Positions 1-58,073 of a stretch of 64,000 nucleotides of DNA are shown one piece after another. The position numbers and the translations under genes were made by a program. Position 1 is the stretch's first letter. Each line of letters starts with the position of its first letter. Below the pieces are notes generated by a model. It saw nothing but the letters and a program-made list of their open reading frames with translations. It did no database searches and was not told where the DNA came from. Origin of the DNA: Dentipellis sp. KUC8613 (lineage: Eukaryota; Basidiomycota; Agaricomycetes; Russulales; Hericiaceae). The stretch spans positions 194,106-258,105 of the forward strand of contig NSJX01000011.1 of assembly GCA_002286715.1 (NCBI GenBank). Direction: 5' to 3'.

Positions 1-190
1 TACGAACGCACCGGCTCGATTGGTCTGATGCGAGAACGAGTCTCGTCGACACAGGCTAACCCCCGAAGATGCACGTGACCGGTCTCATGAGCGGCTGCAC
101 AATATCTCTAGTCTTTGCGTTCTGTACGTTTCGCATACCTCGTACTCCACGCGCAGCATGTCCCAGCTTTCCTGCATATAATCTACAGCG

Positions 191-1282
191 CTACAGCGTC
201 ACTCTTCCTTGCATGCCCACTACTCCATCTTCGTCTTCAGCCCACAATCGCACCGCGGAGGTTCCTTCCCATGATCCGCAAATTCGGACAGGCCGGTCTA
301 CAATGATTGGATTTACTGCCCGGTACGTGAAGCTCTTGAATTGTGCATCAGGCTTGTGGAATGCCAGTACATCCAGTAGCATTAGCGCGGTCAATGGGCC
401 GTGAACAAGGCGTTCTGTTGAGTGTCTCGTTTACCCTCCTGTGACAACAATATTGTACATGGCTCCACACACCTGGATATCCTTCGAATTCTTGGGCATA
501 TTTACGATCCAGGTGGACATGATGACCATTGAATGTGAGCGCCGAAAATCGAAAGAGCGTTGTTGCACTAGGTGTGTATGTGAACGAGAAATCTGCCGTA
601 GGCAGTTCCGTGACTGTCCCGCAAGCAAGTATCAGCCTGACATGTGCTGCAGCAAGGCTGTACGGCCGCTGCTCCCGTCCAGCGCAAGTCACTGAGAATA
701 CGCACCGTCCCGAAACTTCCTCTGATTGAGTCCCAACGCGAGATAAACATGTGTCCTCTCTTCCATCACAGCAGGCTGCTCGTCCCCCTCATTTCTCATG
801 TCAATCTTCTGCCGCACGAACACCATGGGTGCACCCTTCTCAAAGCCTTTCTTCTCAACGGAGTCAATCGTTGTGACAGACGTTGCCTTCGCGCCAATCA
901 GCAGAGGCTTCCTCCATTCCATCCAGCCTCCGGCCCACATTCGCCTTACGAACGGCTCTGGAGGACAGAAGTCGGCGTCCGTCCCATCTGGTCTCAGATA
1001 CCTCTCTGGGGTGCGGGGGTGGAAGAACACGAGGTGGTGGCCATAGCCCAGAGGTGTACCCTCAGACGGAGGTGTATATGGCTTTCTGGTACCATCGCGA
1101 GTCGGCAGTGTCACATAGAGGTCGGAGAGATGGTCAGGGTGGAGTGTAGCAGAATACTTGAGCCGTTTGTCTGCCGTCGCTTTGATCCAGTGGTCAAGCG
1201 CCTCTGTGCCATGCGTCGTAGAATAGGTGCGCTGCAGCTGCCTCGCCGTCGTGTGCAGGAGAGTGGGACGCATGGAAGGCAC
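191..1282 (-). CDS. HTD2: Hydroxyacyl-thioester dehydratase type 2, mitochondrial (HTD2-like, hotdog fold)
   Basis: Predicted 3-hydroxyacyl-thioester dehydratase of mitochondrial type II fatty-acid synthesis. The first exon (1282 down to about 740) starts with a Ser/Thr/Arg-rich, acid-poor N-terminus (MPSMRPTLLHTTARQLQRTY) that looks like a mitochondrial presequence. It continues with the MaoC/FAS1-like dehydratase N-half (PLGYGHHLVFFHP, RRMWAGGWMEW). The C-terminal hotdog half is in later exons: TLFRFSALTFNGHHVHLD, with the HxxH-like active-site region, then RLVHGPLTALMLLDVLAFH, ending GMQGRVTL-stop at 191. The frame change between exons is explained by short introns. Family membership is clear from the paired motifs; exact internal splice sites were not all resolved. 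The 190 bases to the left edge hold nothing I recognise. Confidence 0.82.
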
Positions 1283-1481
1283 AGACTACGCTGTAATGTC
1301 CGTTGTTCGTCTGTCTATATACTTGATCCGCTTGACCGTGGCAAGGTCACCGGTCACCAGACACCCGATTCAATCATCGTGCAAGACGACCACGGCGTTG
1401 AAGGACACCACATCTGGTCAACAATTCCTAAAATTATTACATTCTTTCAATTGGTATACAGCTAGTCGCGGTAGCGTACAG

Positions 1482-2563
1482 CTACTTCTTGTTCATGATA
1501 ACCACGTAAGTCTTGTGGGGGTGTTCGAATACACCATTGGCTTCATCAATCCATTTCTTTCCGTCACCGCGCTCAACGATTGCTTGGATGTCCGTCTTGA
1601 TCTTGGCCTTGACATCATCTGTCTGAATAGCAACGTAACTCCTGCTGAACGCTCGGTTCGTCACGATCTCCAGGGTTCCTGGCAGAAGGTAGTCCCAAAC
1701 TTTCTCGACGGGAGGCTCGAAAAGCTTCTCGTAGGTTTCGTTGAACACTTTCCGCCATAGGCCGAGGCGGAATTGTGGGGCTCCTTGTTCATACGATTCG
1801 ACGCAGTCACGGACCTGACCGACCCATTCTGCTACCTCACTAGACGCAAACTGTAGGTCCGACCTGACTCGTAGAAGAAGGATGCGGCATGCGACCTACC
1901 GATCCTCCAAGTTCCAGATCAAGGCAACAATACCATCCGGTTTCAGGATGCGGGAGAATTCTACCGCTGCAGCGTCAAAGTCTGGGCACCAGTGAAATGC
2001 CTGGGTCCCACAAGGAGGATAGCATATAAACCATCTACGAGGTCATGAAATGCCAGGGTTCGACGCACCTGCGCTATCACAATCAGGTCTACTTGACCAT
2101 CCGGAACGCCGGTGTTGTCGAAGAACCCTTCCTTAATCGTTACACGCTCGTCGGTGACGGACTTCGCGAAGACCTCGCGCATGCCAGCACTTGGCTCAAG
2201 CGCAGAAAGCTTCTGGATGGAAGTGGACCATTCTGGATGGGCAAGCAGGGCACGGGTAAAGATCCCAGTGCCTGCTCCAATCCTGTTAGAGAGAATAGCT
2301 GTGATGTTCAGCTGCTATGGTTGTCACGGGGTCAAGCGGACGACACTCGCTCAACGATGTTCAGAGGGGGTTGAGCCTTCACTGATTGTCGGATGAAGGA
2401 GAGGGCATTGGCCTGGTAGGACGGCCGAACTCTAATTGTATACAGGAATCGTCGGTCAGAGGTGATGCCCTGGTCGCCAGTTTCAGCAGACGCACCTGTC
2501 ATAGAGCTCGTTTGTGCCTTGCCCGAAGCCTTTCCTAGCCAATTCGTGTACCACTCCCGACAT
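1482..2563 (-). CDS. SAM-dependent class I methyltransferase (Crg1/trans-aconitate MT-like)
   Basis: Class I Rossmann-fold methyltransferase. I place the start at 2563, where MSGVVHELARKGFGQGTNE opens in the way usual for this fungal family. A phase-2 intron (GTGCGT...TTAG) joins LYDR to VRPSYQANALSFIRQ. A second intron joins NIVE to the SAM-binding loop IGAGTGIFTR (motif I). Then follow LSALEPSAGMREVFAK, VDLIVIAQ, and after a third intron (GTGCGT...CCCAG) AFHWCPDFDAAAVEFSRILKPDG. The last exon ends TYVVIMNKK at 1482. The layout matches the Methyltransf_11-type proteins that include yeast Crg1 and Tmt1. The substrate cannot be deduced from sequence. The gene lies on the same strand as both neighbours, with no overlap. 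Confidence 0.8.
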
Positions 2564-3240
2564 CGTTTGTGCGTGTAGATCGATGGCTCAGGCAGTGTTT
2601 TGAGACTCGGATGGTGGGCAGAATCCACGCGTGATAGCAGGCTTTATATCGCTGATCATGCCATTGACTAGAAGCTTGAGCCAGCTCAGATGACATGGAA
2701 AATGCGCAATCCAGCGATCTGAGAGTATATAACTGTGCGCATCCGGTCCCGGTGTTCCGTCCACATGTTGTAGAGTCACCCTCACCGGCGCGTAAGATAA
2801 CGCTCGGCTAGTGGCGGTCCCGAGCTTGCCGCCGGGCCACGCTATACTCGAATCGTCTGTCATTGCACAATTCTGTCAACAGAATAGTTACCAGTCTATC
2901 ACTGAATGTACCCTTGTACGCCACGTGCATATATACTGGTTTAAGGCGAAATGTTGATTGGTGCTCGGATTGAAATGCTAGGAGTCGCAGAAACCTGGCC
3001 GATATGCTGCACCCATAGACATCCATATGTGTATTGTCTCCTCGTTGAATGCGCAGACATAGGCAGGACCAACAGAATTTGGCTCGGTCAGTCGTCTTCG
3101 GAACGTGAACCAGGAGGCAGTCGGTCAACTGTCGATCCAAGAATTTGAAGCGTTTGCATCGTACACTTATTACGCAGTCGGATTCCTTCTTGAAAAATCG
3201 ACTGGATGCCGATCACGCTAAAGATGTTTTCTTGGGCCAG
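2564..3240. other. Gene-free stretch between methyltransferase and MTR3
   Basis: About 680 bases. Two minus-strand open frames of about 90-110 codons lie here (2588-2863 and 2808-3140), but neither shows a recognisable domain or convincing splice continuation. It probably holds the methyltransferase promoter and the MTR3 3' untranslated region. Confidence 0.5.
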
Positions 3241-4316
3241 TCATATTTCACGAACATCATCTAGTAGTGCTTGAGCTACAATCTGGTGGATATCAGTACA
3301 ACGTTCTTGACAGAGCTCCATGCACTGCAAATCGTATTTGAGCCAAAAAGTCTGTCGATAGTGCATGGGGGACATACCCGCGTCGCTTCTACGGGAAGCA
3401 TTGAGCCCCTTTGCCAGACACTAGTGATTGTTCCCAACGCAGGAATGCAAGCAAAGCCCAAGGTCCCTGCTGCTAACCTAGACTCTTCTTCTGTAGGATC
3501 TAACCAAATCTCTTTCCCTACAGTCGACTTTGTACTTTGTTAGATCAAGTACAGAACTGAGAACGAGACATCCTTACGGCAACACATGACACTACCAATC
3601 CCAGCATCTCTATGCCCGCATTGGCAAGAGCCGTAGAGGCAGCGACGGCACCCGCAGCCACGCACGCCTCATTACCATCGCTTTCTATCACGGTGACGAA
3701 GATATCGATGACAGACTTGGGTAGAAGTTCCAAGCGAACAGCCTGAGCCAAACTCTGTTGTATGTGCACTGCGACAGAGCGATCTTCTGCATCCTGCATA
3801 TGTATTTTCAGCTTTTGCTATACGCCATTGAAAATGACGAACGTACCCGAAGAGGCGCTCTTCTTGTATTGCATGAAAAAGGTGCGAACTTGACCTCCAC
3901 ATTCAACCGACCTTTTTCACTGAAGGTCGTGCTTTTAGATTGGCGCGGGCCATACCTAGTGATCCGCTATGGTATCAGTATGTCGAACGCTGAGGATGAC
4001 ATGGAAAATACGAACACGGCGCACGCGATTTTTGTACGTTCTGTCTCGATATATGCCGATCCATTCGCCTGGCTGATCAGACCAGCTTTTAGGACTATCT
4101 GACACGAACGCGTATGAAACATGTAAAATAGAATCACGACAATACTATGGTCTCCTACGTACATATCGGCCGGATGTCCAGAGCCCCTCGACCTCGCCGC
4201 GGTTCCCCTTCTACCCAAGACGCGTAAGAAGTCGAAGGTTCTTCAGCAGGGTCATACACTGGCGCAAAACTTTCATCGGGTCCATTGACACGTCGGCGGT
4301 CGAACGCGGTCTGCAT
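3241..4316 (-). CDS. MTR3: Exosome core subunit MTR3 (RNase PH-like fold)
   Basis: Ring subunit of the RNA exosome with an RNase PH fold, expected to be non-catalytic and to act in nuclear and cytoplasmic RNA processing. The start codon at 4316 opens MQTAFDRRRVNGPDESFAP, followed by GRGALDIRPI and, after an intron, LKAGLISQANGSAYIETERT-KIACAV, the typical first RNase PH strand block. The second half has EDRSVAVHIQQSL, LPKSVIDIFVTVIESDGNEA, and AAGAVAASTALANAGIEMLG. A terminal intron (GTATGT...TGCAG) joins PVEATR to AMELCQERCTDIHQIVAQAL, with the stop at 3241. The serine/alanine-rich 'AASTALANAGIEMLGLV' block and 'LPKSVIDIFVTV' favour MTR3 over RRP41 or RRP46. It is divergent to the NSRP1-like gene. 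Confidence 0.85.
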
Positions 4317-4455
4317 GGAGGAGAGCCAGGGTATTCGCGAAAATAAGTGGATGAGGAAGCAGGTCGCTTGGAGTATGTGTCGGGGAGAGTTCCACAAAGT
4401 CGGCGACAGGAACGAGTCCCTCCTAAAGGCCAGCCATTACGTAACACTTACAGCA
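4317..4455. promoter_or_regulatory. Shared divergent promoter MTR3 / NSRP1-like
   Basis: Only 139 bases separate the start codons of two head-to-head RNA-processing genes, so this must carry the 5' untranslated regions and promoter of both. No TATA box is evident. Inferred from layout only. Confidence 0.45.
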
Positions 4456-5728
4456 ATGAAGCTCTCGTTCTCTCTCACCAACAACAAACCAAAGCCTGTC
4501 GGCGCAGCACCCTCTCTCAAGCGTCCTGCGGCATTCGCGTCTCTCGACGATGATACCACCGAGGATGCAGCCCCGACGTCGAGCAGCGCGCCGAAAGCTG
4601 CGACCAACAAGCAGCTGATCGCCCAAAACGTCCAGATGTCGAAGGCCGCGAAGAAACGAATGGAGGCAGAGCAGAAAGTGGATGAAACAGTGTTTCAGTA
4701 TGATGAGGTGTGGGACAACATGCAGCATGCGAAGTTGAAGCAGAAAGAGATCAAAGAGCAGGAGTCCAAAGAGAGGAAGGTCAGTTACAACCCGCAGTAG
4801 GTGCACTGCAAAACACTGAACAACGCGATACTTGCAGCCCAAGTACATCGGCAACCTGCTTTCCACTGCCGCTACCAGAAGGCTTGACCATCTTCGAGCT
4901 GAGGAGAAAATGATCCAGCGGGAGAGAGAAGCAGAGGGTGACGAATTCGATGGCAAGGAGGCATTCGTCACACAAGCTTACAAGGATCAGATGGCTGAAG
5001 TGAGGAAAGCTGAGGAAGAAGAGAGGCAGCGAGAGGGTGAGCAGTCATGTTGCCTGCCTTCCCAGCGTGGTATCCAACTTCGCATTACAGAGCTCGAGAA
5101 GAAGAAGGGTGGCAAGTCTACTGGTCTTGCGCATTTTTATCGCAAAATGCTCGAAGAATCTGAACAGAAACACGAGGAGGCGGTTGCGGCCACGCAGCAG
5201 TCGGGCGCGAAGGTTGTCAAAGGACCCCAAGGACCGACTCCGAACCTGACGATCACGAAACCACCTGACTACACTCCGAAATCAGACTTGGAGCTCGCAC
5301 GTCTGGCCAAGGAACAAGGCAAAGAGGTCGAACTCAATGATGACAATCAGATTGTCGACAAGCGGGAACTCCTGACTGCCGGTCTTAATCTCTCCGCCCC
5401 AAACACACGTCGTCTGGGGCAGCGAAGTTCCTCTGCGAATAAAACCGAAACGCAAGCACAAGAAACTCATAGGGCTGTCGGTGCGGCAGCCAGCAGGCGC
5501 GAGATCAACGAGCGGAGGATGAAAGAGATCTCCTCACAATTGGATGAAGAACGCGAGCGGCTGGCTAGGGAGAAGGAACAACGGGAGAAAGAAGCTGCAG
5601 AGCGATTGGTGTCACGCCGTAACGATGACTCTCAGGTGCAGAGTGCCATCGAACGATACCAGCAGAGAAAGCGACGAAGGCTAGAAGAAGCTCAAACGCT
5701 GACTACTGGGGGCATTCCGCAGTCGTAG
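4456..5728 (+). CDS. NSRP1: Nuclear speckle splicing regulatory protein 1-like (NSRP1/CCDC55 domain)
   Basis: Highly charged, largely coiled-coil protein of the NSRP1 (CCDC55) family, linked to alternative splicing in nuclear speckles. The start at 4456 opens MKLSFSLTNNKPKPVGAAPS; upstream in-frame ATGs lie inside the divergent promoter and are less likely. The family core is QYDEVWDNMQHAKLKQKE, then after an intron (GTCAGT...TGCAG, ending near 4837) PKYIGNLLSTAATRRLDHL, and GLAHFYRKMLEESEQKHEE. A second intron at 5037-5090 is 54 bases and open in frame, so it can be retained without breaking the protein. The C-terminal third (NERRMKEISSQLDEERERLA, AIERYQQRKRRRLEEAQ) is Arg/Glu-rich helix. 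The Ser/Thr-rich segment near residues 30-55 looks disordered. Confidence 0.82.
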
Positions 5729-5864
5729 CAGCGACCGTCGTGCGCTCCGATATTTATTTCACGGACATGGTTATGGCCGTAGTTGTATTCTACTTGTAAT
5801 GATCATAACAGACTCACCAGCACGCGACGCTTGGATCTTGAACTCACAAATTAGCAACGAGACA

Positions 5865-7093
5865 TCAGCAAGACGCAATTTTCATCATTGAAACCATTGT
5901 ATCAAATGCCATTAGGGTATCTAGAGCGCACGGCCGTTCTTCTTGGTTTTCGCAAAGCATGGGCTTCACGAAGCGAATTAGCTGGTCTTTCAGGTAGCCA
6001 GTCATCTTAATCATCGACCGTCAGCCATTGTGAAGATCAACACCTGAGTGATCATACATACGTAGCTAGCTTTCAATATCAATATTCCTAAGGCCCAAAC
6101 GTCCACTTTGAACGGATCACTCAACTCCCCACGTTCAAGTTCTGGAGGTAATTCCGTGGCTCGACCTGCTTGGACTTTGGGATTGAGCGCGCCATCAAAA
6201 CGTCGGCTGAGTTCGTAGTCTATACAGGCGTAATGTCCCTTGTAGTCTGTGACAAGATTTCGGATTGAGATGTCAAGATGCGCAATTCTATGCAGGTGCA
6301 TGAAAGCGACGTGCTATAAAATCAACAGTTTATCGTCAAATTGCAAGAAGCAATGGCTTGCTACGGACCTCTATCGTAGAGCGGATAGCGCGTACGAAAA
6401 GTCCTAAGCAGCAGGGTTTCTCGGGTATCAGCTCTGGAGACCATTCTTCCATGACGATGAATGCGATGCCATCTCCCCTATCCTCGATGAAGTCAAGTAC
6501 AGCTAAGCATCGTCATATCAGGGCCTGGTCCAAAGCCTGTCATATTTGTGACTCACGTATGCAGTGATTTTTCGGATCCGTGCGGAGTGGAGGAGACGAC
6601 AGAAAACGGGTTATATCAAACTCGCGGCTCCCAAGGTGAACGGCCTTGACAATTATAGGTGCATGGTCTTTCTTTCGACGGCCCCTGAAGAGATTATCAT
6701 GCTTCACCTTGTCAGTAGACGTGCTGGTTGATAGGAGGATGAGCTTACAAGTCCTGGGTCTTTGCAAAGAGCTTTGTCGTCGCGAAATCCACAGGCTCTA
6801 GTGTAGCCTGCAGATTGACGATCGCTTCCGGGAGCGCAGCGTTCCCAGTAGGCCTCGTAGAATCGTTTCACATCGCCAACAGTATCCAGGTGGAAGCCAT
6901 GGTCTTCGAACAAACCGCGATATCTCTCCCAGTTCGGTGAAACACGAATGTTCAAGCTGTCCTCGTCTTCCGACGAACTGCTTGACAGAACGGAGTCTGT
7001 ATCGTCACCTATCGATTCAGACCGATTAGACATAGAGCGAATTGTGAGGGCTAGTGGAGTAATCACAGTCTCGGAAAGTGGTGCAGAGACCAT
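5865..7093 (-). CDS. Divergent protein kinase-like domain protein
   Basis: Eukaryotic protein kinase-like fold of a type common in agaricomycete genomes. The N-terminus is acidic and Ser-rich (VLSSSSSEDEDS). After an intron comes the ATP-lysine strand (APIIVKAVHLGSREFDITRF), then DFIEDRGDGIAFIVMEEW, and after another intron HVAFMHLHRIAHLDISIRNL, a variant catalytic loop (HLD...N in place of HRD...N). The magnesium loop reads CIDYELSRRF, so the Asp is kept but the DFG Phe-Gly are replaced by Tyr-Glu. APE-like ELPPELE and VDVWALGILIL follow. A last intron (GTATGT...TTAAG) leads to the tail with EERPCALDTLMAF, stop at 5865. Start at 7093 or at the internal Met at 7033. The substrate is unknown and it may be catalytically weak. 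Confidence 0.68.
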
Positions 7094-7713: not shown

Positions 7714-8398
7714 ATGGAGGAGGGAACCAAGACCAAGAAAACCATCTTCGTCGGCGGCATTGGCGAGGATGTAGACGAGGCAGTCTTGCTGGAGAATTTC
7801 TCCACTTTTGGTTTGTAGCATTCGTGAATCCTAAACCCCTTCGCTGACCTGTTTTTCAAACTTTCCAGGCGACATTATTGACGTGCAGCTGCCTACGGCC
7901 GCTGCAAACCCCTCGCAGCCAAACGGTGAGTACAGCACAACACCTCTTTTCCAGATGCTGACCGTTCCTCAGAGACCAAGCATCGTGGCTTCGCATTCGT
8001 CACATTTGCGTCGAGCGGCGATGCACAGACTGCTATAGACAACATGGATCTCAATGAGCTTCGTGGCAAGGTGATCAAAGTCAGTCTCGCTCGCCCCAAC
8101 AAGGGTGCACTACAACCCAGTGGCAACCGGCCAAGTTAGTCCTATAATTTTCTCATGTGTTGGGAAAATCAGCTTACACTGCGCGTCCTAGTCTGGGAAT
8201 CGGAAGAATGGCTCAAACGCTATGCGAAGCCCCTCGCCGAAAGTGGCGGTATGTCCAACGTCCGTCTGTTCGGGAGCTATGAAACCTAACTCAATGGGCA
8301 TTCCCACAGGACTCCAAGCCCGCAAAGGTGAGCATGACTCGAAATCACCGGAAGGGGATCAGGAGAACGCGGGCGAAGACGAGGCCATGGAAGAATGA
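7714..8398 (+). CDS. Single-RRM RNA-binding protein (PPIE/cyclophilin-33 RRM-like, no cyclophilin domain)
   Basis: Small RNA-binding protein with one RRM. RNP2 is [20 protein letters not shown] and RNP1 is [20 protein letters not shown], followed by [19 protein letters not shown]. This order and spacing match the RRM of spliceosomal cyclophilin E (PPIE/Cyp33). No PPIase domain follows: the next exons read [19 protein letters not shown] and a short acidic tail ([14 protein letters not shown]) ending at 8398. At least four introns interrupt it (for example after the first RRM strand near 7815 and after SQPN near 7925). The start at 7714 gives [15 protein letters not shown]; an in-frame upstream ATG at 7591 would add about 40 unlikely residues. 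A spliceosomal role is inferred from the family. Confidence 0.78.
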
Positions 8399-50733: not shown

Positions 50734-50932
50734 AGCTACTAGGTCGCCGACCTGCAAACTTTCGTACCTGGTGTTGAAGCAAGTGTCTATGACACGTCAA
50801 TGTCTAAGTGGGAAGCATGTCCACGGTGGGTATCTGCCACGGTGGGATAACGCGTTGGTGTAGATGACCTGTTTGCATGCCGCATCGTGACGCTCGCGAA
50901 ATAGCCGGTCTACACCATCGTGTGAATACTAG

Positions 50933-50939
50933 TGGAGCG
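50933..50939. repeat. Left target-site duplication (TGGAGCG)
   Basis: TGGAGCG directly abuts the left terminal inverted repeat and recurs directly outside the right one (57848-57854). The surrounding 13-base string ACTAGTGGAGCGC is identical at 50928-50940 and 57843-57855. A 7 or 8 base duplication fits. Confidence 0.65.
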
Positions 50940-50970
50940 CTAGTCTCGTTCCCGTCGTTCTAGGAGAAGG
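50940..50970 (+). repeat. Left terminal inverted repeat
   Basis: 31 bases beginning CTAGTCTCG. It aligns with the reverse complement of 57817-57847 over its full length with a few mismatches and single-base gaps; the outer nine bases are identical. Confidence 0.75.
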
Positions 50971-51092
50971 ATCCCTTGCGCTCTGTATCCGAGGGTAGGT
51001 GGATTATCGAGATCTCGGATGATACCGAGTCGGAGTTGAAGTCGGAGGCAAAAAAACAGTAAGGTTCACGCGCAGGATCCTCTCCTAGAACG
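50956..51092. repeat. Left subterminal inverted repeat (hairpin)
   Basis: CGTTCTAGGAGAAGGATCC (50956-50974) pairs with GGATCCTCTCCTAGAACG (51075-51092), differing by one base indel. A smaller inverted pair, ATCCGAG (50987-50993) and CTCGGAT (51014-51020), lies between the arms, so a branched hairpin is possible. Confidence 0.75.
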
Positions 51093-51259
51093 TCTGGTGT
51101 ACTTCGTATAGAGGGGTGCACGTCGTGACATTACATAAATTGTACAGGCCGTCATGTGATCGAAACGCGTCGCAGACGCGTCGATTTCTTACGCATCCAG
51201 GATGACAAAATGAGACTAGTAAGGGACAGCCCCACAATTTTAAGTCGTGTCCACCAACC

Positions 51260-54200
51260 ATGGCCTCCGACGTCGAGCCTGCCCCGGACGACGACCCAGC
51301 ACCGTCAAGCAGTGCAGTCGAGGAGGGTGAAAATCCCCTGGCAGCAAGTGCCCCTTCACAGGACAGGCAGGCTCGAGCAGATGCTCATGAAAAACAGCGG
51401 CAAAGGTCGGAAGCTTTGCTCGAAGCTGCTCGAAAGCGGGCCAAAGCAGGTTCAAACTACAACTCTTTTGAAGCTCGAAGGAAAATGCTTGAGCAATGCA
51501 AGACTCGATCTGAAGGTCGCATAGTCCCTCGTGACTGGCAGTTAGACATTGCCGAAAGTCTCGTCCTCGGCATGGACTGCGAGCTCATTGCCCCGACTGG
51601 TGCAGGCAAAACTATACCATTCATTCTGCCACTCTTTTATCAACCCGACAAGATCATTATTATTATATCCCCCTTAAATGCACTTGAAGAAGATCAGGTT
51701 AGTTGTCTCGGAGTCGGGTGTCTCATGTAGGGCTGAAACTGACCGAATGGAATATAGGCTCGTCGCTTTCGTGCCTTGGGAGTCTCTGCACAGGCCGTGA
51801 ATGGAACAACATACACAGACACGTTGCAAAAGGTACGGTTCGTGCGTGTATCTTGTATGCGTTCCTCATCCCCGCGCAACAGGAGATCGAGAAGGGCAAA
51901 TATCAGATCCTTGTCACCTCACCAAACATGTGCTTGCAGCACGACAGGTTTCGCGCGCTCCTGAGCAGCCCTGGTTTCTCGGAGAAGATCAGCGCGTTCA
52001 TTATCGACGAGGCGCATTGTATCACGCAATGGGGTGAGAAGTTTCACACCAAATATCTGCAGCTTGGTACGCTGCGCGCATTTGTGTCCGCGCAGGTGCC
52101 GTTCCTCGTCACGTCTGCCACTTTGACGCCAGCAGACCTCGTCACCATACGCAAATCTGTGCAGATGGACAAGACAAACATGTACCATCTCAACCTAGGT
52201 AACGACCGTCCGAACATCGCTTGGCGAGTCATTCACATGAAAGCTGGTAAATCAGACCTGGAGAGTCTCGATTTTTTGCTTCCGACGGAAGCAGAGCCAA
52301 CCCTTCAACGCACCATCGTATTTTTCGATGATATTCAGGTTTCGATGGAAGCTTGTCGCTGGTTTCGAGAACATCTTCCCGAGCATTTGCGCCACCGCGT
52401 CGGGTGCTACAACTTGCGTCGCAGTCCTCAATCGAAACATCATTGTTACGACCAATTTTGCAACGAGGATATGGACATATGGTTCGCGTCCGAAGCGGCG
52501 GGTATTGTATGTGAGTCCTGCATTCAAGTGAATTTGTTACTGAATCTCGGCACTTACAGGGATGTGACATACCAAGGATCAAGATTGTTGCTCAATTCAT
52601 GGTGCCGGGCTCGCTCTCGATCTGGCTCCAGCGTGCTGGGCGTGCGGCGCGACAGCAGGACATGCAAGGTGAGGCTTACCTTCTTGTCCAACCCTCTGTT
52701 TTTCGAGAGAAAGGAAAAAAGAGCCGTCAAGAGGGAGATGATGTTGTATACGTGAAAACTATCGAGGAAGGATTGCGCACTTGGCTGGAGGGAGAGCAGT
52801 GTTGACGCAACATCGCGGACGACTATTTTTTCAATCCGCCCACACGACAACGTGCGTAACTCCATTCGGTAGGACTACTGCATGCGGCTCATTACATCAC
52901 CATCATGATAGCACCTCTCGGCATGTGCTGCGATGTCTGTCAAACGAACGTGCCCGTTGACGCACGCCCTCACACCCCCACTCGAGCTCGCTTCAAACGC
53001 CGCGGCGGCGGCGGCGACGACGACGACGACGCAGCCACTGTCATTTCCCATCCGACTCCCAGCAAGACCCGAAACACGTTCGGGAAGCGCACAATGCACG
53101 ATCCTGATCAAGGTCCGGCGACTCGACAGAGGGAGCACCTTGCCGAGGCGAGGAAAGCTCTCGAATGCTGGCGTCTTGACACCTGGTTCAACCGCTATTC
53201 GACAGCGCCGTATGGCATCGAGGGCGTCATGCCCGACACGGTGCTCACCGCCTTTGCATCGAACAGGCACTGGCGTTCGGTCGAAGACGTCGACAGTCCG
53301 GCGGCGAACTGGGTATGGCTCGAGAGGCATGGGGGTGAGGTGCTGAAATTGATGTGGGACATTGACGAGAAGGTGAGGAGACGGAGAGAAGACGAGCATC
53401 AAGCAAAGATGGACGCGAAGAAGGCGGAAACCGCGAGACGGAATGCGGAGAAAAAGCACACGAAAAAAGACGAGCAAGAGCGGGCACGCGAAGAGCGCAA
53501 ACGCCAGCCGCCAAAGCCGCGCGCTTCGCGGGCTCGCAAAGCTCGAATCGAGCCTGTTCAAACTGCGAACATAGCCAATGTAAGTCCTCACGCCTTGCGT
53601 GCACGCATAGCTCAGTACTTACTGGGAAGCAGGTTCAACCCGCACCCGCCATCCCATTCCCCGATTCGCCAACACCCAGACCTCGCGTGTTTCGACCTCC
53701 TGCGCAGCACGGGGCCGTATTGCAGGCCGTCACCCCTCCTCAAACTACTGTCAACATGCGAGCGATGGGCCAGCCCAGCAATCCGCACGCATCAAGCAGC
53801 TCGCATGACCATGGCGCGTATGCTCTAGGATCACATGGGGCGATATCTACTCCGATACCTCCTCTGGCCACTCTGCAGAGTACTTTAGGCACGCCGATGG
53901 TTTCTGCATCTGGCCCTTTTGACGGACTCTACCGACACGCTGGACATGTGGACCCGATCGCGTACGCACAGGCACTCGCGAACACGAGCTGCACCACACA
54001 CGGCATGTATCATTTGTATGCGTGCGCGCGCTCCAACGCACACGATCATGCTGCACCTTGTCGGGTCGCTCAACAACACGATGCACCCCGCAACCCATCC
54101 GAGCCATTGTACGGCCTTGCATTTCCTAGTCTCGGTACGCATCAAGGACTCGCATCAACGCCTCCGGACCCATCAGCCCCGCACACTCCTTCGCCCTATC

Positions 54201-54526
54201 TTCCAAACTCTGCGCGATATATACCTGCTCTCATGGTGTACACACCCCCGCCATACTACACGCCACCCGCATTGCTGCCGCTGGCACATGGTGACGCAGC
54301 AGCGCCTCTTCAACATTCTTATCAACCACCTTTCTGCGACGCTCCACCATCGCGCTCTCCTGAATCTCGGTTCTCTGGCTGCGTTGGGAGCAGTCGGGTA
54401 GATTGCAACATGCCGGCCGTCCCTCGACTTCGCGTTTCCGTGCAGAGTGCCTCGGCGTCGTCTGCGAGCGTAGGAGATGTGTTCCCTTTCGGCGGCGGAC
54501 ACCGACAACGCCAAGCAGGTAAATAA
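51260..54526 (+). pseudogene. RecQ-like DEAH-box helicase of the mobile element, with one in-frame stop
   Basis: Superfamily 2 helicase. The start at 51260 opens MASDVEPAPDDDPAPSSSAV. Motif I is LIAPTGAGKTIPFILPLFYQ; two introns later come ILVTSPNMCLQ, motif II AFIIDEAHCITQWGEKF, motif III PFLVTSATLTPADLV, motif V SEAAGI-GCDIP (across an intron GTATGT...TACAG) and motif VI WLQRAGRAAR. A TGA at 52803-52805 ends the core at GLRTWLEGEQC. In-frame sequence continues RNIADDYFFNPPTRQ, then past a GT...AG intron (52852-52911) PPLGMCCDVCQ, a CxxC-bearing tail as in related fungal helicases. After that comes a Lys/Arg/Glu-rich helix and, past an intron after NIAN, a Pro/His-rich tail to 54526. The core alone (51260-52805) may still be made. 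Confidence 0.72.
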
Positions 54527-54646
54527 AATAGTACTTTATGAGAGACTTCTATTGACCTTCGTGCATACCAGCTCCGTAGGCATGCGCGACACCGAGCGTG
54601 GGTGTGTAGTACACTGTAAACTCAGTCGATAACCTATCATAATATG

Positions 54647-57295
54647 TTATACCTCATCGAGCCACTTCTCCCGAGTGGAGCGCACAAACGACCGTCCTTT
54701 CCACCACCGCTCGATGGCTTTATCTTGGTAAAGGGCTGTTGCACCCTCAGTAATGAAGTCCTTTGCGCGGTCTCCTGGCTTCTTCAGCCGGCGGTTCTTT
54801 TCATAGGTGAACCACCGCTCGCTCAGTACGATATCAGCATATTTTTCAATATCTTTTTCCTTCTTGGGAGATGAGTGGCGGTCTCCACGAGTAAGTAGCA
54901 TCTCTAACTGCCACTTGATGTGCTTTTTGACTTCACGCAGGACAGGCACGGCAGGCGAGATTTTTGTCAAGTATGCAAGGGTTGCACCAGGTCCGAACAA
55001 GTGGTACGTAACTTTCAGGTCTTTGATGTTTTGCTCCTGCGCACGATCAGTCGGAACAAAGCCGTCGCGCTTCCCGGTTCTGTTGACTAGCCAACAGTGT
55101 GTTCGTATTATGTCTCTGGGGGCCCGAAGTAAGTGCACATTCTTGTTGCAGATGATGCGTGACTCACTTCACTGATTCGGGCCATTCGCAGCGCAGTCCT
55201 TGCACGAGCTCAAGCATTTCGATCATGTACTTGCTGTTCCCGCCGCCAGCGAATCGCAATAATAGGGTTGGGACCAAATCTTCCATGCAGCCAACATTGC
55301 CAGTACGTGTTGCGTCGCGCAAGTCCAGGTACGAGAGTACATCCGAGTTGAAGAGGATCGACTGATATTTGACCTCATCTTGTTCATGATGAAGTTGCAT
55401 CTTCAGAAGTGCATGACGACATGCATATTGATCATAGATATCCTCCGCCAGCAAGAGAAGTTCTGCGGGTGTCTTCTGTGCAAGATCTCCAATGGTTTTG
55501 GTCTTGCTGAGGAGAACCCACAGCGCTCGAAAATGAGCCTCTGCAACATGGGTGAGTGCTTCATCAAGATGGTGCCAGAAGGGGCCCTTGACTTGTGTTG
55601 ACATGAGTCCCTTGCACTGCAGTACATCAAATGCTTTGTGGAGTCCAACGCCCCCGGAAGTCCCAAGATGCTGCTTATGCAGAGAACTTGCAAAGGCCAT
55701 TTCAATATGAAACCAACCATTAACAGTGACAATCCAATCAAGCCTTTCGTAGCTGTTGATATCATCATGACAGTACTTTGCTAGACCACGGAGGCAGTCG
55801 ACGGTGAGCTGGTCTCCGACGATGGGTATTAGATGACCTGTTGATGTCTTCTTCATCTCGGCCAATGAGTCGATCTTCAGCTGTCGTTGCCACTCTACCA
55901 GAACCTTCTCGTTTCCTCCGTAGCTTGCTTCATCAATGTCTGCAGTGCGTAGAATAAACTGCTTGATGACGTGTTCTGGTCCACATGGCAAGAGGTGTAC
56001 TGGTGGGGGAGGAGATAGGATGGGATCATTGCGGTGTTGATAAGTAGCAAATGCTGGGCAGTCAAGTAGAAAACAGAGAATCCGATAAACACCTTGATTG
56101 CGAAGACGTCCATAGACCATCGGATCAGTGTCAAGAAGTTGGGAGAAATCGAATGGGGCCTTGCTGCCTTGAATACGAGACTCCTGCATCTCCCGGTTGA
56201 GGGTGGCAGGGAATACAATCTCCTTGGGTAGAACCCATAATGTACCTGCACATGCGCTATGAAAATGACTTTGATTTTCCAACCGCATCGAGAAGACACG
56301 TTTCGGGATGTTCAGGTTGTCATGAGAAAGGAAGGTGGCTCGACCATTGATTGCAGATTGTGCTGCCTCCTCAGCACGACTTGCAATGCTTGCAAAAGCT
56401 GTCGTGGTCCACTTGTGACTCATAAGAAGCCCAACAGCATGAAGGGCATCAAATGCACGAGCCGAAAGGCCACACGATTTGAGATATATGGACCAAAGCA
56501 TTGGGAGGCGATTGCAATGATGGGATCGAGTAAATGAAAGCATGGACAGTATATTCATGATGACCTAAAACTTTGTGTTAGGTAGGCTGTTAACAAAAAA
56601 ATGAAGAAACATACATTGTCGGGTGTTTTGTGTGTATTGCGGGTGGCTTGTTCTTCGCTCCATCCTGCTCTCTGAAGAATTGACCATAGTATTGGACATC
56701 CTTGAGGGGATTTCAGGTGCATGGATAAGGCATGGAAATCCAGAGATGTGAGGGACTCCACCGATAGAGGATCAGGAGACGACTTCATTGCAGGTGCAAT
56801 GCGGGCAATCTCCGCTTCAACCAGTTCTGCAGTGCAAGCCACTGCAAATTCTGTCAGTAATCCTCGCCCCTGTTTTGCTCGTCCACCTGGCGGATGCCAC
56901 CAGCGACGCAAGATGATGGGAAGTATGTTGCTTGATAAGAGCGCAGTACGTTCATAGAGGAGTCTTGGATCGGAGATGCAGTCTTCATCACCCCAGCTGA
57001 GATAATCCAGGAACAAAACAATGTCCAGGCCTTCATCCTCCATACAGGAAAATACCCGTTTCAATTTTGCTGCAATGTTGCCCTGCATTTGTGAGCGAAG
57101 AGAGGTAGTCCGAGCATGCTGAATTGGTGGTGCAGACTCAACAACAGGTTCAATATCTGAGATATCATCAGATCCGTCAAGATCTCCAATAGACAGATTA
57201 TCAACATCATCAAGATCATCAGAAGAAGAGATATTGTCGAAGAATTCATGGAGAGAGAAAGCAGAATCAGGGCCAGAAGGTGCAGATGTCGGCAT
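54647..57295 (-). CDS. DUF6589 domain protein of the mobile element (candidate transposase)
   Basis: Large protein of the DUF6589 family, expanded in agaricomycetes and of no established function. Exon 1 starts at 57295 with MPTSAPSGPDSAFSLHEFFD, then an acidic region and AGWSEEQATRNTHKTPDN. After an intron the second exon is 464 codons: NILSMLSFTRSHHCNRLPML, HAVGLLMSHKWTTTAFASIA, LDTDPMVYGRLRN, STGHLIPIVGDQLTVDCLRG, VNGWFHIEMAFASSLHKQHL, LLLLAEDIYDQYACRHALL. A short intron (GTGAGT...CCCAG) joins SVK to DIIRTHCWLVNRTGKRDGFV, then DRAQEQNIKDLKVTYHLFGP and a Lys-rich helical end, stop at 54647. The frame is fully open, unlike the helicase. Assignment as transposase is inference from its place inside the TIRs. 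Confidence 0.75.
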
Positions 57296-57723
57296 GGTGT
57301 TGAGGTGAAAAGACTTCTTGCACGAGATGCCGTATTTAGATGATGACGTAAGCATTCAGCGAAGCGACACCTCATGTATTGTGAAGCCACGAAGATTCTC
57401 AACGCTGAGTAGTGCAGTGGTCATATGGGTTGTAGATCCATTGCGCATCGCTTCGCGCGATCTGTGTTCGAGGCTGACCGGTGGCATTACTTTTTTGCCG
57501 GCCGTTGCTTCCCGCCGTCGTCGCTGAAAATTTCTGCACATACATGCCTTCATGCTGTCTATATCTTCAATGTTTCCTTCTGTTTGACTCTGACAGTCCC
57601 TCCGAAAGCTTTATTGCTCATTTTGCGTGTCATGTGGGACATGTCACATATGTTACATCCGTTACTTATGCACCACGTGCCGTGACTGATTGTCACCGAG
57701 GTGCGTTTCTCTATCGAAATGCA

Positions 57724-57835
57724 CCAGACGTTCGAGGGGAGGACCCCCCACATGAACCTTACGACTTTTTTGACTCCGATTTGCATCTCCGCTACGGTCA
57801 CCGGGCCGGAATCAGTCCTTCCCTCGAACGTCTGG
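57724..57835. repeat. Right subterminal inverted repeat (hairpin)
   Basis: CCAGACGTTCGAGGG (57724-57738) is the perfect reverse complement of CCCTCGAACGTCTGG (57821-57835); the match extends imperfectly a few bases inward (AGGAC / GTCCT). The inner arm resembles the reverse complement of the left end's inner arm (CACCAGACGTTC shared). Confidence 0.8.
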
Positions 57836-57847
57836 AACCGAGACTAG
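57817..57847 (-). repeat. Right terminal inverted repeat
   Basis: 31 bases ending CGAGACTAG on the plus strand, matching the left end 50940-50970 in inverted orientation. Confidence 0.75.
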
Positions 57848-57854
57848 TGGAGCG
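57848..57854. repeat. Right target-site duplication (TGGAGCG)
   Basis: Same heptamer as at 50933-50939, directly outside the right inverted repeat; the next base (C) also matches the base after the left copy. Confidence 0.65.
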
Positions 57855-58073
57855 CCGAATAATGGGCTCTCGCTAATTTCTCGACTTTCAAAGTAGCTTT
57901 TATAAAAATAAAGCCCGGGCCTGCTTCTATTGAGCTCCCCACGGTGTCACGCATCAATGTATTTTAGAGCAAGGCAGTCTTAAATACGCAGAGGCTCATT
58001 GGCGGACGCAAGAGCACATGAACAAGAACTCTACAGGTGAGCAGCTTCAATCTCGCTTCTCTGCATCCTATTC

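Follow-up and report, generated by a model that had tools for sequence, protein, structure and literature searches.

A 64,000-nucleotide stretch of the genome of the basidiomycete Dentipellis sp. KUC8613, a member of the Hericiaceae (Agaricomycetes, Russulales) (positions 194,106–258,105 of the 763,940-base contig C11, hereafter referred to as the window) harbors one complete DNA transposon that was mobile in the past. The element spans 6,906 bp (50,941–57,846 of the window) and carries two genes, one for a RecQ-family helicase and one for a protein with a DUF6589 domain. It can with good confidence be regarded as a cut-and-paste transposon of the AcademH type, in which the DUF6589 protein would be the DDE transposase and the helicase a conserved accessory protein. 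Membership in AcademH is strongly indicated by the published features of this group, a comparison that covers the helicase, the length of the target site duplication, the inverted termini, the predicted transposase fold and the host group.

Ends, Copies and Target Site Duplications

When the genome was queried with window positions 50,930–57,860, a second full-length copy with 89% identity was found at C22:590,819–597,693. The alignment covers query bases 12–6,917 and stops exactly at 50,941 and 57,846, which hence represent the true ends of the element. These are directly flanked by an exact 9-bp direct repeat, GTGGAGCGC, at 50,932–50,940 and 57,847–57,855, i. e. a target site duplication (TSD). 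The terminal inverted repeats (TIRs) occupy 50,941–50,971 (plus strand) and 57,816–57,846 (minus strand), with approximate inner limits. Upon alignment of the two ends, the first eight bases, TAGTCTCG, are identical, and three mismatches as well as two single-base gaps are found over about 31 bases. Further inward, a pair of subterminal inverted arms of 68 nt each (51,039–51,106 on the plus and 57,715–57,782 on the minus strand) is 79% complementary. An initial annotation of the window had proposed an element at 50,940–57,847 with inverted termini of about 31 bases and the flanking direct repeat TGGAGCG. The element and its termini are indeed present and a flanking repeat exists; the ends, however, lie one base further inside on each side, and the repeat differs in length and sequence, comprising 9 rather than 7 bp. 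The same annotation had suggested a search for further copies with the same termini and different flanks, as well as an inspection of the points at which their alignments end. Both turned out in its favor, given the C22 alignment and the copies described below.

Copies were fetched for the matches of the window element and for three further DUF6589-coding families. This afforded 14 two-ended copies from four families, all within this one genome. The window family comprises eight of them, namely the window element, the C22 copy, C9:10,476–11,899, C1:2,470,590–2,472,021, C150:24,282–25,723, C86:285,023–286,425, C121:49,657–49,916 and C86:309,227–321,989, and splits into two subgroups that are about 70% alike. 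The second family is represented by C161:399,847–405,650, C132:7,032–9,405 and C161:3,770–5,052, the third by C161:176,132–183,614 and C19:28,155–29,124, and the fourth by C112:123,370–130,923. Throughout all 14 copies, TAGNCT termini adjoin an exact TSD of 9 bp, never 10, and no two of these duplications are the same. As random pairs of 9-mers from the window agree at a rate of 3e-6 (or 1.2e-5 with identical positions counted in), a chance origin of the duplications is excluded. Chance agreement is likelier at the C19 insertion site, which is rich in C and T. One-ended copies and fragments (C90, C61, C128, C67, C82, C63 and C105) were kept outside this count, as were short copies that look two-ended, for example those at C127, C117, C76, C125 and C128.

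Three members of the window family contain runs of N (positions 930–2029, 886–2030 and 827–1931 of the stretches fetched for C1, C150 and C86:285,023, respectively), so that their lengths carry no meaning. An interpretation as 1.4-kb derivatives with unrelated interiors was therefore rejected, and only their ends and duplications, both intact, were used. Short copies without N are those at C9, C121, C132, C161:3,770 and C19. In case of the C161:399,847 element, an inner 9-bp repeat with one mismatch was discarded as a candidate end, as it is part of a near-palindromic repeat; the true ends, which are set by the short copies, lie 87 and 21 bases further out. For the element at C7, a boundary scan found no ends.

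Empty sites were sought within the same genome by joining 80 bases of each flank of the 14 copies, with one duplication kept. For 13 of them, no match spanning the joint was found in this genome. In contrast to these, the joined flanks of the C19 copy match uncut at four other places, i. e. C161:855,518–855,677 (96%, 160 bases), C127:117,965–118,124 (95%, 160 bases), C155:44,623–44,778 (92%, 156 bases) and C113:29,057–29,209 (85%, 153 bases). This element thus inserted into a repeat whose other members stay uncut. The repeat is dispersed and possibly subtelomeric, as one member on contig C161 lies at 2 kb distance from the contig end.

Two of the loci display a more complex architecture. The full-length relative at C86:309,227–321,989, about 70% identical to the window element and equipped with its own 9-bp TSD, is interrupted by a long terminal repeat (LTR) retrotransposon with LTRs of 362 bp that enclose an open frame of 1,559 codons. 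The two LTRs are 99.4% identical, and the host copy hence predates a fairly recent retrotransposition. At C161:3,646–5,052, the short copy of the second family starts about 37 bases past a fragment that derives from an end of a C112-family element, which points to nested or clustered insertions.

The DUF6589 Protein as a Putative Transposase

The DUF6589 gene is located on the minus strand (54,647–57,295; exons 57,295–56,615, 56,564–55,168 and 55,115–54,647) and encodes 848 amino acids. Its splice model is 100% identical to the deposited protein P0001 over all 848 residues. PF20231, the Pfam family of DUF6589, matches residues 361–773 with E=3.9e-117, and a Pfam scan of P0001 returned DUF6589 alone at E≤0.01. 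Predicted models of two DUF6589 members that are only 18% identical to each other gave the transposases of Hermes and of the P element as best fold matches, with sequence identities of only 7–10% in these alignments. hAT elements such as Hermes and P elements generate 8-bp TSDs and are not known to carry a RecQ helicase. In addition, D309, D478 and E720 form a triad that is nearly invariant. Because of the DDE-like predicted fold and the conserved triad, the DUF6589 protein is very probably a DDE transposase.

A DUF6589 profile run against solved structures did not recover any transposase, its one match being a transcription factor (E 0.28), and relatives were not found in viral contigs. Using the A2 profile and the core of the C7 family as queries (with the scored candidates capped at 7,995 in each case), no relatives outside the Agaricomycetes were recognised among the matches listed, in searches that reach only relatives sharing exact words with the query.

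The RecQ-Family Helicase and Its Association with DUF6589

The helicase gene (51,260–52,805, plus strand) consists of four exons (51,260–51,697, 51,758–51,832, 51,883–52,506 and 52,560–52,805) with 460 codons, followed by an in-frame TGA at 52,803–52,805. The closest solved chain is RecQ (4tmu, E=5e-28), BLM and WRN are matched as well, and PF00270 and PF00271 both score over the cut-off. A probable continuation of the gene follows on the same strand at 52,905–54,526, where open frames encode a cysteine motif and then a region of biased composition, without any Pfam family over the cut-off in this interval. In this copy, the continuation is separated from the upstream frame by the stop. The C22 and C86:309,227 copies lack a stop there, and their frames remain open up to the cysteine motif, which is still present in the window at about 52,930. 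Hence, the window copy probably encodes a shortened helicase and may rely on other copies.

Codon comparisons by the NG86 method, which come without a significance test, suggest constraint on both genes. Between the window and C22 copies, the ratio of nonsynonymous to synonymous substitution rates (dN/dS) is 0.21 for exon 1 and 0.11 for exon 3 of the helicase, and 0.44, 0.14 and 0.07 for DUF6589 exons 1–3. Part of the putative helicase continuation (52,905–53,580) gives 0.18 against C22 and 0.23 against C86 (dS 1.1), the latter having one stop there. For the comparison of window and C86, three of six stretches are saturated and yield no ratio; besides the 0.23 just mentioned, the others gave 0.07 and 0.10 (dS >1.7). 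Selection seems to have preserved both the helicase and the DUF6589 protein during the multiplication of the element.

The association of the two genes extends well beyond the window. PF20231 matches occur at 12 loci of the genome. With the window helicase as query, a match is found no more than 5 kb from DUF6589 at eight of these loci (C11, C22, C67, C86, C112, C161:178k, C161:403k and C7), with identities down to 21–22%. The helicase at C161:176,132 as query adds C93 (C93:2,275–3,057, 58%, covering only the region downstream of the helicase core), which raises the number to 9/12, and the one at C161:399,847 yields no further loci. Helicase matches were not found at C68, C82 and C164, where the PF20231 matches are partial. 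All six two-ended copies with a PF20231 match, out of the 14, also carry a helicase. Judged by strand, the genes are convergent at eight of the nine paired loci and divergent at C112. The helicases of more divergent sequence likewise resemble RecQ-family chains, with E values of 1.4e-20 for C161:176,132 (BLM), 1.5e-13 for C112 (RecQ), 1.1e-7 for C7 (BLM) and 2.9e-5 for C161:399,847 (WRN), the last being a fragment to which no Pfam family was matched. The initial annotation had noted a RecQ-like helicase with a convergent DUF6589 gene between the inverted termini and regarded the pair as the possible mobility module of a TIR-bounded unit. Both genes are confirmed by splice models, Pfam and solved-chain matches, and the co-occurrence across loci and two-ended elements lends support to the module. 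An observation that the annotation had named as contradicting it, DUF6589 genes regularly occurring without helicase or TIRs, was not made. Two RecQ-like helicase matches, C36:395–1333 and C163:32244–32672, lie on contigs without a DUF6589 match. The former, whose protein shares 76% identity with the helicase of the C161:176,132 element, borders the end of its contig.

Probable Assignment to AcademH and Alternative Readings

Among transposon-coded proteins, a paper from 2013 lists a "RecQ Helicase in Academ" (PMC3627910), and a survey of 625 fungal genomes describes Academ copies with DEAD/DEAH and recQ_fam domains, and notes that such copies frequently receive host-gene annotations (PMC6416283). 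According to Kojima (2023), TSDs measure 9 or 10 bp in AcademH and 3 or 4 bp in AcademX, which carries a nuclease in place of the helicase (PMC10045372). AcademH has been cited from Basidiomycota, Ascomycota and Mucoromycota (PMC10799480), and nonautonomous Academ elements are known from Marasmius oreades, another Agaricomycete (PMC8290104).

As judged from papers citing the AcademH description (Kojima 2020), the window element shares with this group the helicase, the TSD of 9 (or 10) bp, a DDD/E transposase and a basidiomycete host. More specifically, the helicase is of RecQ/DEAD type by its solved-chain match, PF00270 and PF00271, the TSD is 9 bp long in each two-ended copy, TIRs are present as is general for DDD/E DNA transposons, and a DDD/E transposase is suggested by predicted fold and triad. 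No differing feature emerged among those compared. If the assignment holds, AcademX belongs to the same superfamily and is set apart by its shorter TSD and its nuclease; Pfam scans of the element's frames revealed no nuclease domain. Two ideas of the initial annotation are not borne out within the scope of these analyses: recognisable transposases had been reported as missing, whereas the DUF6589 models resemble DDE transposases in their predicted fold and the triad is conserved, and an undescribed class had been proposed, yet RecQ helicases in Academ and the 9–10-bp TSDs of AcademH were already published.

Further known groups were rejected. A Helitron, which has neither TIRs nor TSDs, is incompatible with the presence of both, and Pfam scans found no Helitron Rep or PIF1 domain. 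A Mutator-like element, for which PF10551 serves as marker (PMC8290104), is contradicted by the above-mentioned scan of P0001.

An unlikely alternative is that the element represents a separate, undescribed superfamily, in which a DUF6589 DDE transposase without a close relationship to Academ transposases gained its RecQ helicase and the 9-bp TSD independently. Such a superfamily would fall into the hAT/P/RAG structural group, would be distributed across Agaricomycetes and would combine a RecQ partner that is always present with TAGNCT termini and a strict 9-bp TSD. It could have stayed hidden because the first catalytic residue lies ahead of the region covered by the Pfam model. Consistent with this, our literature search found no paper naming DUF6589, and PF20231 returned only an unrelated paper on nanophotonics. 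Furthermore, the named protein matches come from Agaricomycete fungi as far as their genera were recognised, and KolobokH constitutes a second fungal lineage that took up a RecQ helicase (PMC9587614). Against independent acquisition, helicase type, TSD length and host group are all those of the published AcademH set, and the missing animal matches carry little weight, as the search reaches exact-word relatives only.

Kolobok elements duplicate TTAA, whereas a 9-bp TSD is found in 14/14 copies here, which speaks against KolobokH, a Kolobok lineage with RecQ helicase. KolobokH does carry a RecQ helicase and is known from fungi only; its helicase, however, is located downstream of the transposase domain (PMC9587614), whereas the window element encodes it in a gene of its own, oriented opposite to the DUF6589 gene. 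An affiliation with KolobokH is accordingly very unlikely. RecQ genes also multiply near fungal telomeres (PMC4522978), and the window helicase belongs to the same family as these telomere-linked helicases. It is yet found within a TIR- and TSD-bounded unit together with a putative transposase, and about 245 kb inside its 764-kb contig, for which reason a telomere-linked helicase was rejected. That a subtelomeric or host RecQ gene merely happens to neighbor an unrelated DUF6589 gene between accidental repeats is hardly conceivable, given the second copy with the same ends, the duplications in every two-ended copy and this internal position, in a region where open frames resemble Sec16, Trs120 and NSRP1.

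Proposed Mechanism and Implications

Returning to an AcademH-type element, a cut-and-paste mechanism may be envisaged from the predicted fold, the triad and the duplications. The DUF6589 protein would assemble on both TIRs by binding the TAGNCT termini, excise the element and join it to target strands staggered by 9 bp, which would give rise to the 9-bp duplication. Based on its RecQ family membership and its co-conservation, the helicase would most likely unwind DNA at the element ends, at the excision or repair gap, or at the target, during either transposition or repair. Catalysis, the helicase step and any present activity are what we infer from sequence and predicted models.

If this holds true, many basidiomycete DUF6589 proteins would be transposases, and RecQ genes beside DUF6589 would belong to transposons and not to the repair or telomere genes of the host. 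Both kinds of genes would inflate fungal gene catalogues. The elements also raise the question for what reason a RecQ helicase is retained, under purifying selection, alongside a cut-and-paste transposase.

Genomic Surroundings

The gene-bearing flank of the element extends over 4832–40632 of the window and comprises NSRP1-like, Trs120/TRAPPC9-like and Sec16-like open frames.
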